A stretch of DNA of 64,000 nt, from contig JAIVFJ010000010.1 of assembly GCA_025765615.1 (NCBI GenBank), forward strand, positions 533,982 through 597,981, in the 5' to 3' direction. This document shows, one piece after another, positions 12,871 to 20,634 of this stretch (positions within the stretch are counted from its first letter, which is position 1; each line of letters starts with the position of its first letter). The notes under the pieces are model-generated. The model searched no databases and had not been told where the DNA came from. It saw only the letters and a list, made by a program, of their open reading frames with translations. The stretch is from Zopfochytrium polystomum. Its lineage: Eukaryota; Chytridiomycota; Chytridiomycetes; Chytridiales; Chytridiaceae. The translations under genes and the position numbers were made by a program.

Positions 12871-14784
12871 ATGATGAGCGTCGCCGGAGCCGGAAGCCAG
12901 CCTTCTGCTTGCCGCCGCTCGCTTCGCCGGCTCACCGCAGTCGCCCTGGCGGTGGCGCTCTCGCTCTCTGCAGCACTCGCCACGATCCCCGCCGCCGTCA
13001 GCGCAGCAGCATGCTCCAACCCCCAGGTTCGCCGTGAATGGAACGAGCTGTCGGACTCGGACAAGGCGAGCTGTGAGTGTGTGCGGCCTCGCTCTGCTGT
13101 CTGCCCGACGTTCGTCTGACCGAACCAACCGTCCCTCGCTCCGCAAACAGACATTGCTGCCGTCAAGAAACTGATTGCCCGCCCCATTTCGGGACAGTAT
13201 ACCGACCCTTCCAAGATATCCTACTACGACTTTACCATCACTCACGGTATGTTTTTTCTGTCAGATTGCAACTCCGCATCCTTACTCTCGCCCCCCGATT
13301 TTCAGCCGATCTGGCTTACTGGGCTCACAACAACGTCCAGTTCTTTGCTTACCACCGTGCGATGGTGCACATTTGGGACCTCGCCATGCAATCTGTCGGC
13401 TGGACCGGCGGAGCCCTCTACTGGGATTGGACAAAGGATTCCCAGGACCTGTACCAATCGTCCGTCTTTGATGCAAAGTATTTCGGCACAGGCGGTCAGG
13501 GCCCGAACAACTGCGTCAAAGATGGCGCCTTTTCATATGACCAGGTGGGGGAGAGACATATGCTGGCCATATTTCCGGCGCTCTGACCCGTCTTGTCTCC
13601 AGTACTCGGTCTCGCCCCACCCGGAAACAGTTGATTACTCCACAGCAACACCGTACCAACGGGGGGTCAAACTTGACACCAGCGAGTCTTACGCTGCCAC
13701 CTGCCTCCGCCGCTGTAATCCCTCCCCGGACCCAACCGTGAAAGACACAACGTGGTCTGCAGAGGGCCTCGTCAACGCAATGTCGTCGGCGGCGATCTCG
13801 GACTTTACCGGCTTCGACCTGGCGTTCGACAGCAACGGTCCGCACGCCGTCATTCACAGCTGGGTCGGTGGCAAGTACCCTGCAGACGACACTGTCGCAC
13901 CAAACGGCGTTTGCGGTGACATGGCCGCCGGCGCGTACAGCCCGAACGACCCCATCTTCTACCTGCACCACGGCATGATGGACAAAATGTGGTACCTGTG
14001 GCAAAAGACGTGCCCGTCGTTCGCGACGGCCTACAGCGGCCAGCTCAACACAAACAATGGCGCCAACCCAGACTCAGCCCTCAACGCATACAGCGACAAC
14101 GCTGCCGCCTACGACGCGCAGCTTCTCGATTCCTGGGCCGTCCCCGTCGCAGAAGTCCTCAGCACGACCGGCGGGTACCTCTGCTACACCTACTCCTCGT
14201 CCAACATCGACACAGTCGCGATGAAATACCAGGGCACCTGCCCCGGGCTGGACGAGTCGGACCACTGGCTGTACACGATCGTCAAGCAGATGTCGGGCAT
14301 GTCCGAGTCCGCGGCGTCAGCGCACCTTTTGAAGTTTGGCTCGGCGGCGGACCTGGAAAGCGTCGACGCGACGGACCTCGCGAGCGCGACCGCCGTCGTC
14401 GACCACCCCCTGCGACCGTCGGTCCCCGCCAACTCGACGTCGCGCGAGGCCGCTTCAGAGTTCCTTGCTTCACAGATCATCGCGACAGACCCGAACATCG
14501 TCATCAACCCGGATACGGGCTACGCCGAGTGCTCTCTGACGAGCTCCATCGTCGACCCCGCCGACTCGACGGAGCAGGACCTTCTTCGCGCTTGCCCTTT
14601 CATCCCTGAGGGACACCTCAGGATGATGAACGCGAGCGTCGCACTCGAGCGTGCCCTTGAAGCCCAGTGCGATTGCAAAATTGCCAAGGTCAATGATCGG
14701 ATCTTGAATGGCACCTACACCAGCGGCAGCTCTCTCCGCTCCGCCAACGCCTTCAGGGCAAAGGTGAAATCGGATGGCTTGTAG
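12871..14784 (+). CDS. Secreted tyrosinase (type-3 copper monooxygenase), copy 1
   Basis: Four exons with matching phases: 12871-13072, 13151-13246, 13306-13544, 13603-14784, giving 572 aa. The N-terminus has a hydrophobic secretion signal of about 48 residues ending near AVSAAAC, then the Cys-Ser-Asn-Pro...Arg-Glu-Trp block common in fungal tyrosinases. CuA ligands are His99 (FTITH, last codon of exon 2), His107 and His116 (HNNVQFFAYHR). CuB ligands are His260 and His264 (HAVIHSW) and the His301-His302 pair in FYLHHGMMDKMW. Enzymes of this family oxidise monophenols and catechols to quinones, feeding melanin or wall cross-linking; here it would act outside the cell. It converges with a second tyrosinase on the minus strand 715 bp downstream. 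The C-terminal part after the core is Ser/Ala-rich with Cys residues. Confidence 0.9.
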
Positions 14785-18403: not shown

Positions 18404-20634
18404 TCACCCGGACAGGTGATCCCAATTTCCGGACTTCGAAAAAAGTTTCTTGTTTTGGGCAGCAACACTGACGCAGCTCTCGTCACGGTTGCACCGCTCC
18501 ACGTACGCAAGCATCTTGTTGTAGCCGATTACGTATCGGTCATACACCAAGTGCCGCCTGGCAACCTGCTCGGGCGTCAGCGGCGGAGACGGCACGATGC
18601 AGTCCTCCGCCGCCTTGACGCACACTCCAGAGAACGCGTCAGGCGTCATCGTCGGCACACGCGGGTCCGCGATTCCGGGGTAGGCAACCGTGTAAAAGGT
18701 CTCGGCGCCGGCGTCGTCATCTGCAAAGCTCGCACCATTCGGCCCTGCCGCTGACGGCGGCACCTGGGTGCCGTTGCCGTAGCTGCCCCCGCCTGTTTCG
18801 AGCGCAGTACGATTGCAGGCAAGCACAACCCGGTCTGCCACGATAAGGTGCACACTGCAGGCATCGGGCACAGTCACATTGGCGGCACCGTCGGCGTACG
18901 ATACCACTGTCGGGATCTCTGCGACGTCGGCATTGAGAACTGCGACCGCGGACATCCATGCGTCGCCGAGGTTGCCCGTAGTTGTGTTGGTGTTGGTGTT
19001 GGTCGCTTTGCTGTCGACGATGGTGGCATTTAGCGGGAGGGAAGCCGCGGACCGGCGGACCACGGCACTTCCCGGAGCGCGAGTTAAGCCGCCCCCACTG
19101 GTGACGACCAGGAGACCCTGCACCATCTGCGTCAGCCATTCTTTTTCCTTTTCCAAATCGCGCGTCACAGTCGGCGTCGGCACAGAGCTGGCGGTCGTTG
19201 GAGTAGTTCCGGTTCTACTTGACGGTGAGCTGTTAGGTACGGATGCAAAAGGCCAGTTCAGGTTGGGGGCGCTGCCGTCCGGACACGCTGGCGCGTCAAA
19301 AGTTACATCTCCCGAAGATTGGGTGTAGGTGTAGCATAATGGTGATCCGCCGAGCGTGTCCATCATGTCCGAAACCTTAAAGTTGGTCCACTGGTCAAGA
19401 ACCTCCTGCAAAGAAGCAACGCCACTCTTGTCTGCAGGGCTGGGTACCATGTGGCCTTCAAAGTCTGTAAGATATGACGGACAGAGGTGCTGCCACTTCC
19501 ACCATGTCTTGTCGATAAATCCGTGGTGCACTAAAGTGGGAAGCAAGTGCTGTCAGATGGCGCGACCAACAAGAGTTTGTCCTTACAGTAGAAGCCTGGG
19601 TCTGAATGCACAAATAAATGGTAGTTGCATTAATAGTGAGTCGTACATCTGTCGAACTAGACAGTTCGGAACGAACCATTAGGAGAAACGTAAAAGTTGC
19701 CCATGTCGCAATGATCAGAATCACCGCCAACAGTAATATGGCCATTGGCGTGGTATCCGCTAGTGTCGTCGCTGCGGAAGTCATTGTAGGTCGTCGCCTT
19801 CAAATGTGCGTCGGCTATGGCCCCTGGGTCGTCAAGAGGGGTACCGACAAATCCGCACCGCCGCAAACAGGTCTTGTCTCCGGCGGGAAAGTTTCTTGTA
19901 GAAGCTCCAAACGGTGGGTACGGCGAAACGTTGTACTTGCCGGCGGCGAAGGGGCCTTGGGTAAGGCATGAGTCGGACGAGCGCCCGACGTTTTCGCCAA
20001 AGTACTGGAAAATGTCGGACTCCCACCAGTTTTGAGCGACGGCAGACCAGTCCCAGTAGACGAGACCGAGGTCCCAGCCGGCGTAAATAAGCATTTGCTC
20101 GTAAAGGTGGAGCATTGCACGGTGAAAAGGATAGAACTGCGCTACGGCGTGGGCATAGTAGGCCCCGTTCACTTTGAAAAAACCGGTCACGATTTTCAAA
20201 ATGAATGAAGCTCTCAACAAGTGATCCCTACTCACCATGGCTATGTTTGGGGTGAAGGCAACGACGTGACACGCGAAAATAGGACTAGTTTTGAGTGGAA
20301 GTAAAGAGGGAATGGGCTCGATGCGCTTACTTTTTCACCAAGTCATAATATCCCATTATCCCTGGTTTGATTGAGTCCTGGAGCCCGTTGTCCGCCAGCT
20401 TCCGGACAGCAGCAGCATCTGGTGGTTGTCCAGGAAGGAACAGTTATGAACGCTGATTAGGCGGGTCCAGTGCTTCTGCTACTCACAGGCAGTCTTTTGG
20501 TCTGGAGTGAGCTGGTTCCACTCCATGCGGACGATTGGATTGGAGCATGCAGCCTTGGCCGGTGAGGCAGACAATTGAATCGAGGCGAAGAGGACGACGG
20601 CGATCGCTGGAACGAAACAGGCAACCGTCCTCAT
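18404..20634 (-). CDS. Secreted tyrosinase, copy 3, containing a 5-nt microexon
   Basis: Six exons join in one frame of 625 aa: 20634-20487, 20418-20331, 20240-20236, 20171-19677, 19601-19587 and 19530-18404. A secretion signal of about 28 residues precedes the Cys-Ser-Asn-Pro...Met-Glu-Trp block. The first CuA ligand, His80 (KNHV), is encoded by a 5-nt exon, CCATG on the coding strand, flanked by an AG acceptor and a GTGAGT donor. Without it, neither phase nor histidine fits. The other CuA ligands are in YYAHAVAQFYPFHR. CuB uses YHANGH and FYLHHGFIDKTWW, with the PGFY part coming from a 15-nt exon. The C-terminal extension is Thr/Ser- and Asn-rich with several Cys. Function as in the other copies. 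Confidence 0.88.

Follow-up and report, generated by a model that had tools for sequence, protein, structure and literature searches.

A 64,000-nucleotide (nt) stretch of Zopfochytrium polystomum DNA (contig JAIVFJ010000010.1, positions 533,982 to 597,981; here called the window) carries on its minus strand a tyrosinase gene, tyr3, whose coding sequence passes through the five bases CCATG at window positions 20240 to 20236. Judging from the sequence, we consider these five bases to be a genuine and probably constitutive exon of a chytrid tyrosinase or catechol oxidase-like gene, carrying the codon of the likely first ligand of copper site CuA, and we give this reading a probability of roughly 0.93. 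A first-pass annotation of the same DNA had proposed a 5-nt exon that supplies the first CuA histidine. Support for this proposal now comes from a pair of paralogues whose own 5-nt exons have matching phases, from two deposited proteins, and from intron-free paralogues with equal histidine-to-histidine spacing.

Structure of tyr3 and its candidate copper ligands

Direct reading of the sequence and assembly of the gene by script gave six coding exons of 148, 88, 5, 495, 15, and 1127 nt, and a coding sequence of 625 residues plus the stop codon (626 codons), arranged as follows.

20634-20487, minus strand: exon 1, including the start codon, 148 nt
20418-20331, minus strand: exon 2, 88 nt, ending in phase 2 with ..GTGAAAAA before gtaagc
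20330-20241, minus strand: 5' flanking intron of the microexon, 90 nt, gtaagc...acatag
20240-20236, minus strand: exon 3, the microexon CCATG, 5 nt, upstream flank ccaaacatag, downstream flank gtgagtaggg
20235-20172, minus strand: 3' flanking intron of the microexon, 64 nt, gtgagt...tcaaag
20171-19677, minus strand: exon 4, 495 nt, with candidate ligands His88 and His97 of CuA and His221 and His225 of CuB
19601-19587, minus strand: exon 5, a second microexon, ACCCAGGCTTCTACT, 15 nt, encoding DPGFY directly before the CuB histidine pair
19530-18404, minus strand: exon 6, 1127 nt, from the CuB LHH through the stop codon

At the sequence level, CCATG is an internal exon of 15 nt or less with a GT-AG intron on each side and matching phases. 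It completes the codon of Asn79 (aa/C), contains the whole codon of His80 (CAT), and begins that of Val81 (G/tg). The first-pass annotation had set the exon between TAG and GTGAGT, as an in-frame link from exon 2 (phase 2) to exon 4; direct reading and assembly confirmed this arrangement, and the script assembly reproduced the Asn-His-Val and the 626-codon gene that had been claimed. The accompanying alignment with the two neighbouring tyrosinases held for one of them, since tyr2 does read T-H-T (ATHTK), and failed for the other, since spliced tyr1 reads T-H-A rather than T-H-G. Both copper sites of tyr3 are split by tiny exons (5 nt at CuA and 15 nt at CuB).

The tyr3 product matches Pfam family PF00264 over residues 73 to 265, with a score of 106.1 bits (curated cut-off, 22.6). 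Its CuA candidates H80, H88, and H97 are 8 and 9 residues apart, the same spacing as that of the CuA ligands His102, His110, and His119 in AoCO4, a catechol oxidase of Aspergillus oryzae, in the part of its description drawn on here (PMC5929527); by homology of spacing, His80 is likely the first CuA ligand. The CuB candidates begin with H221 and H225, whose spacing of 4 equals that of AoCO4 His284 and His288, and continue with H252 or H253, so that the third histidine lies 27 or 28 residues further on in tyr3 versus 24 in AoCO4. A structure search matched AoCO4 (4j3p) and bacterial tyrosinases; the alignments obtained were for haemocyanin only, and ligand identity in tyr3 therefore rests on spacing.

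Paralogues with and without the flanking introns

The genome was searched by Pfam and then by protein, which gave at least 12 loci: nine full family members, the truncated C84, and the distant tyrosinases C48 (read by eye only) and C80. The 5-nt exon is present in three of the nine full members of this genome (tyr3, C287, and C78), one of the two introns is present in one (tyr1), and neither intron is present in five. The place of the microexon, its passage from phase 2 to phase 1, its 5-nt length, and the histidine in its middle are common to tyr3, C287, and C78. In the genes other than tyr3, the states of the site are represented by the following features.

C287, microexon: cag/TCACG/gtgagg; exon 2 ends GTGAAAGA/gtgcgt; peptide KDHVNGAYYAH
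C78 (L024), microexon: tag/ACACA/gtaagt; exon 2 ends CCAGAG/gttcgt; peptide QRHTDDAPYVH
13151..13246, plus strand: tyr1 exon 2, running through the equivalent CuA histidine (ITH) without the 5' intron; one-intron state
17476-17462, minus strand: equivalent CuA histidine of tyr2 (ATHTK) in an uninterrupted exon; intron-free state

The 3' intron of tyr1 (gtatgt at 13247) shares its phase with that of tyr3, the junction being ACTCACG/gtatgt...cag/CCGATC; a Pfam scan of a short piece of tyr1 gave no match. The five intron-free members (C359, tyr2, C278, C91, and C19) each read continuously across the equivalent histidine, and YDLVAIHTNAAPYVH of C359 is equal in length to YDLVKNHVNGAYYAH of tyr3. 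C278 was retained even though aligning it called for an odd intron of 58 nt, which may reflect a frameshift. The distant C80 has no intron at either of the two sites. C84 (L031) is a truncated copy of the tyr2/C19 group; the stretch directly following the second CuA histidine is missing from it, and it has no intron at CuA.

The flanking introns of tyr3, C287, and C78 gave no alignment above shuffled sequence (in six comparisons, 39 to 136 of 300 shuffles scored as high); exon length and phase are thus retained among the three genes despite diverged flanking introns. An introner-like or otherwise repeated origin of the two tyr3 introns was considered and rejected: the 159-nt stretch of introns plus microexon matched only itself in a genome search (one that passes over simple repeats and words of very high frequency), and between paralogues the introns show no alignment.

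Two deposited proteins of Z. polystomum pass through the exon. Over 630 residues, P0001 (from C287) matches the DNA without a difference when TCACG is spliced in; P0020, from C78, passes through ACACA and differs from the spliced DNA elsewhere. The two models are independent support for the 5-nt exon. At CuB, P0020 lacks SYSPNDPFFYL and reads NPMHHAM where the C78 DNA can give NPSYSPNDPFFYLHHAM, and it is probably a mis-spliced model. Two further deposited tyrosinases, P0002 from Cladochytrium tenue and P0018 from Siphonaria sp., start at a methionine that immediately follows the CuA region; exons further upstream may have escaped annotation there, possibly through similar small exons, or the contig may be truncated (that of P0002 is 2,087 bp long).

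Small exons also occur at CuB in this family. A 23-nt exon (HHGMVDK) is found there in tyr2 (16822-16800, minus strand), C278 (L027), C91 (L028), and C19 (L029). In the last three there is also an exon of 17 nt (DPLFY); its 5' boundary and that of the 15-nt exon of tyr3 differ by 2 nt, an offset that suggests an intron shift or an independent gain.

Alternative joins and possible gene decay

The join through CCATG had been described as the only one possible without a stop. This did not stand, as tyr3 has at least three stop-free alternatives. If exon 4 starts 8 nt past the microexon end, the product reads ...VKKDHLLRASFILKIVTGFFKVNG... and gains 17 residues; if it starts 23 nt past that end, the product reads ...VKKASFILKIVTGFFKVNG..., without the CuA histidine, and gains 12 residues; and a 49-nt exon that ends in the same CATG, at the poor donor ttg/gtgaaa, gives ...DLSYFRVSRRCLHPKHSHVNG... 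and likewise 12 additional residues. All three are open in tyr3, and two retain a histidine upstream of VNGAYYAH, which speaks for a tyr3 that has no microexon and uses one of the other acceptors or the 49-nt exon instead. We nevertheless regard such a join as very improbable. The tyr3 spacing of two residues from the DFV-like motif to the histidine is kept in all 13 homologues, from which the extra 12 to 17 residues are absent, and none of the alternatives explains the matching 5-nt exons of C287 and C78.

The joins were compared with a purpose-written protein-guided spliced-alignment program at intron penalties of 6, 10, 14, and 18. There were 13 query proteins, nine from other chytrids (P0009 to P0017) together with P0003 to P0006; six of the 19 protein-search matches had been dropped beforehand, two because they come from this genome (P0001 and P0007) and four because they are without the CuA region (P0002, P0008, P0018, and P0019). 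With increasing penalty, the number of queries selecting the 5-nt exon was 13, 13, 10, and 8 in tyr3, 13, 13, 12, and 10 in C287, and 13, 13, 12, and 11 in C78. Dinucleotide shuffles of the gap never reached the observed spliced-alignment score (0 of 500 in each of six tests, i.e., three loci with two queries each). Barring both microexon sites of tyr3 at penalty 10 lowered the score by 14.3 to 30.3 units for nine of the 13 queries, and barring the microexon acceptor alone, which permits the 49-nt exon, lowered it by 27.9 and 26.8 units with the two queries tried.

The exon is also rare as a pattern. Across the two strands of the window, 128 kb in all, AG-NCAYN-GTRAG[T/G], a pattern devised after the site had been seen, matched once, at the tyr3 microexon itself, and the looser AG-NCAYN-GTRNG matched five times, equivalent to 0.006 expected per 160-nt gap.

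Several observations weigh against a 5-nt exon in tyr3. The alignment program is liberal: shuffled gaps yielded an exon of 30 nt or less in 85 to 265 of 500 cases, a 5-nt exon in 31 to 86, and a 5-nt exon with a histidine in 0 to 7. Since it finds small exons so readily, the weight rests on the score and on the agreement of the three loci. At penalty 18, five of the 13 queries do not pick the tyr3 microexon, and at penalty 10 its advantage is small for four (0.3, 4.3, 6.3, and 11.3 units), so that for these queries an alternative join costs little. Neither flanking intron of tyr3 contains a match to the branch-site pattern YTRAY, which is present in both introns of C287 and of C78; this is a small point against efficient splicing of tyr3. 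The models of P0001 and P0020 may stem from RNA, homology, or ab initio prediction, and P0020, as noted, looks mis-spliced at CuB. The protein searches returned no deposited model of tyr3; this says little, because they returned none for tyr1, tyr2, C19, C91, or C278 either.

The missing model and the missing branch-site matches would also fit a decaying tyr3, in which the exon is not spliced in and a CuA-competent enzyme is not made, a reading that is less probable still, given that the gene is otherwise open for 625 codons with its copper-site histidines and its PF00264 score intact and that a phase-correct microexon matching those of two paralogues would be an unexpected remnant of decay.

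History, splicing, and relation to known microexons

In a first tree, C78 fell outside a clade with 100/100 support that comprised tyr3, C287, C359, a Cladochytrium protein, and four further sequences. A second tree was built without the long branches C80 and P0022 (C80 was in the first tree; C48 and C84 were in neither), and forcing the three microexon genes together on it was rejected by the approximately unbiased (AU) test, with a p-AU of 0.0006 and a log-likelihood lower by 42.5; the group tested was defined by the exon, and the first tree was already known when the test was made. Because tyr3, C287, and C78 do not form one clade, either the exon is old and introns were lost later, or it originated twice.

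We favor an ancestral microexon, with introns lost in C359, in tyr1 (5' intron only), and in the tyr2 group. More broadly, we lean toward the view that the 5-nt exon is ancient and selectively kept in chytrid tyrosinases, that it predates the split between C78 and tyr3/C287 and has persisted while both flanking introns diverged beyond detectable similarity, and that the sister genes represent steps of its dissolution, with two introns, one, or none. An exon older than that split would also be older than the separation of Zopfochytrium and Cladochytrium. The competing history, which is compatible with the exon being genuine and which we consider distinctly less likely, is that the tyr3/C287 lineage and C78 each acquired introns at both positions independently. 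The AU result would suit repeated gain, as would the position of C359, which lies within the tyr3 clade and has neither intron. However, repeated gain requires that two insertions hit precisely the same pair of sites, the 3' one of which is also occupied in tyr1, and intron loss would seem the simpler account. Ancestry followed by loss thus remains our preferred history.

Errors at the exon would be costly. Skipping of the tyr3 microexon shifts the frame and leads to a stop at codon 192, retention of the 5' intron gives a stop at codon 80, and retention of the 3' intron gives one at codon 83; the equivalent errors in C287 and C78 likewise yield premature stops. As such errors destroy the enzyme, constitutive use is to be expected and a regulated switch is unlikely. 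In tyr3, C287, and C78 the flanking introns are short (53 to 100 nt), which favors recognition intron by intron, i.e., by intron definition. The two introns would then be removed one after the other, and whichever left first would fuse the five bases to an exon of normal size; the splicing machinery would never have to bind both sides of the microexon simultaneously.

These genes are a clear case, from a fungal phylum that diverged early, of an ultra-short exon carrying a likely catalytic metal ligand. The presence of two-intron, one-intron, and intron-free versions in one genome opens microexon origin, loss, and splicing order to comparative study. There is also a warning for annotation, in that chytrid tyrosinases may be mis-annotated at their copper sites, of which P0002 and P0018 may be examples. 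A chytrid or tyrosinase microexon appeared in no title or abstract start among the literature matches listed, with mentions within full texts possible.

The known systems are compared here as far as the cited portions of their reports describe them. The first-pass annotation had placed 5 nt at the limit of what can be spliced, which was overstated, as 1-nt exons have been published (PMC4674806, PMC12940212). One of these, in the CYP621A P450 genes of Fusarium, resembles the tyr3 exon in being fungal and ultra-short, in lying in a conserved motif, in being revealed by an intron-free relative, and in leaving misfitting phases when omitted (PMC12940212). It differs in size and family (1 nt in a P450 versus 5 nt in a tyrosinase) and in its confirmation by SRA reads, whereas the tyr3 exon is known here from DNA; moreover, the Fusarium genes are orthologues, whereas tyr3, C287, and C78 represent separate paralogue lineages of one genome (PMC12940212). 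Other fungal cases are the P450 genes of Phanerochaete, with a shortest exon of 6 bp (PMC1184071), and Xlr2 of Trichoderma virens, whose microexon is a glucose-responsive switch, unlike that of tyr3, for which constitutive use is expected and skipping breaks the frame (PMC11121469).

Outside the fungi, plants have conserved microexons of 1 to 15 nt, among them a phase-1 cluster of 5 nt in Peptidase M1 genes; these are like the tyr3 exon in size class, in conserved position and phase, in partly encoding protein motifs, and in often being missed by annotation, but they were identified from 990 RNA-seq datasets (PMC8831610). The single-nucleotide exon of Arabidopsis APC11 is constitutive, and the authors of that study suggest that its two introns are recognized by intron definition and removed in succession, the same route that we infer for tyr3; APC11 differs in being a plant gene with a 1-nt exon studied by in vivo assays (PMC4674806). 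The 4-bp microexon of human MPC1, like that of tyr3, is not a multiple of three and has constitutive inclusion, the contrast being that intron definition is presumed for tyr3 (PMC9929638). Ultra-short exons as such are therefore already established, and the added interest of this one lies in its occurrence in two separate lineages, at a likely catalytic residue, and with mixed intron states within one genome.
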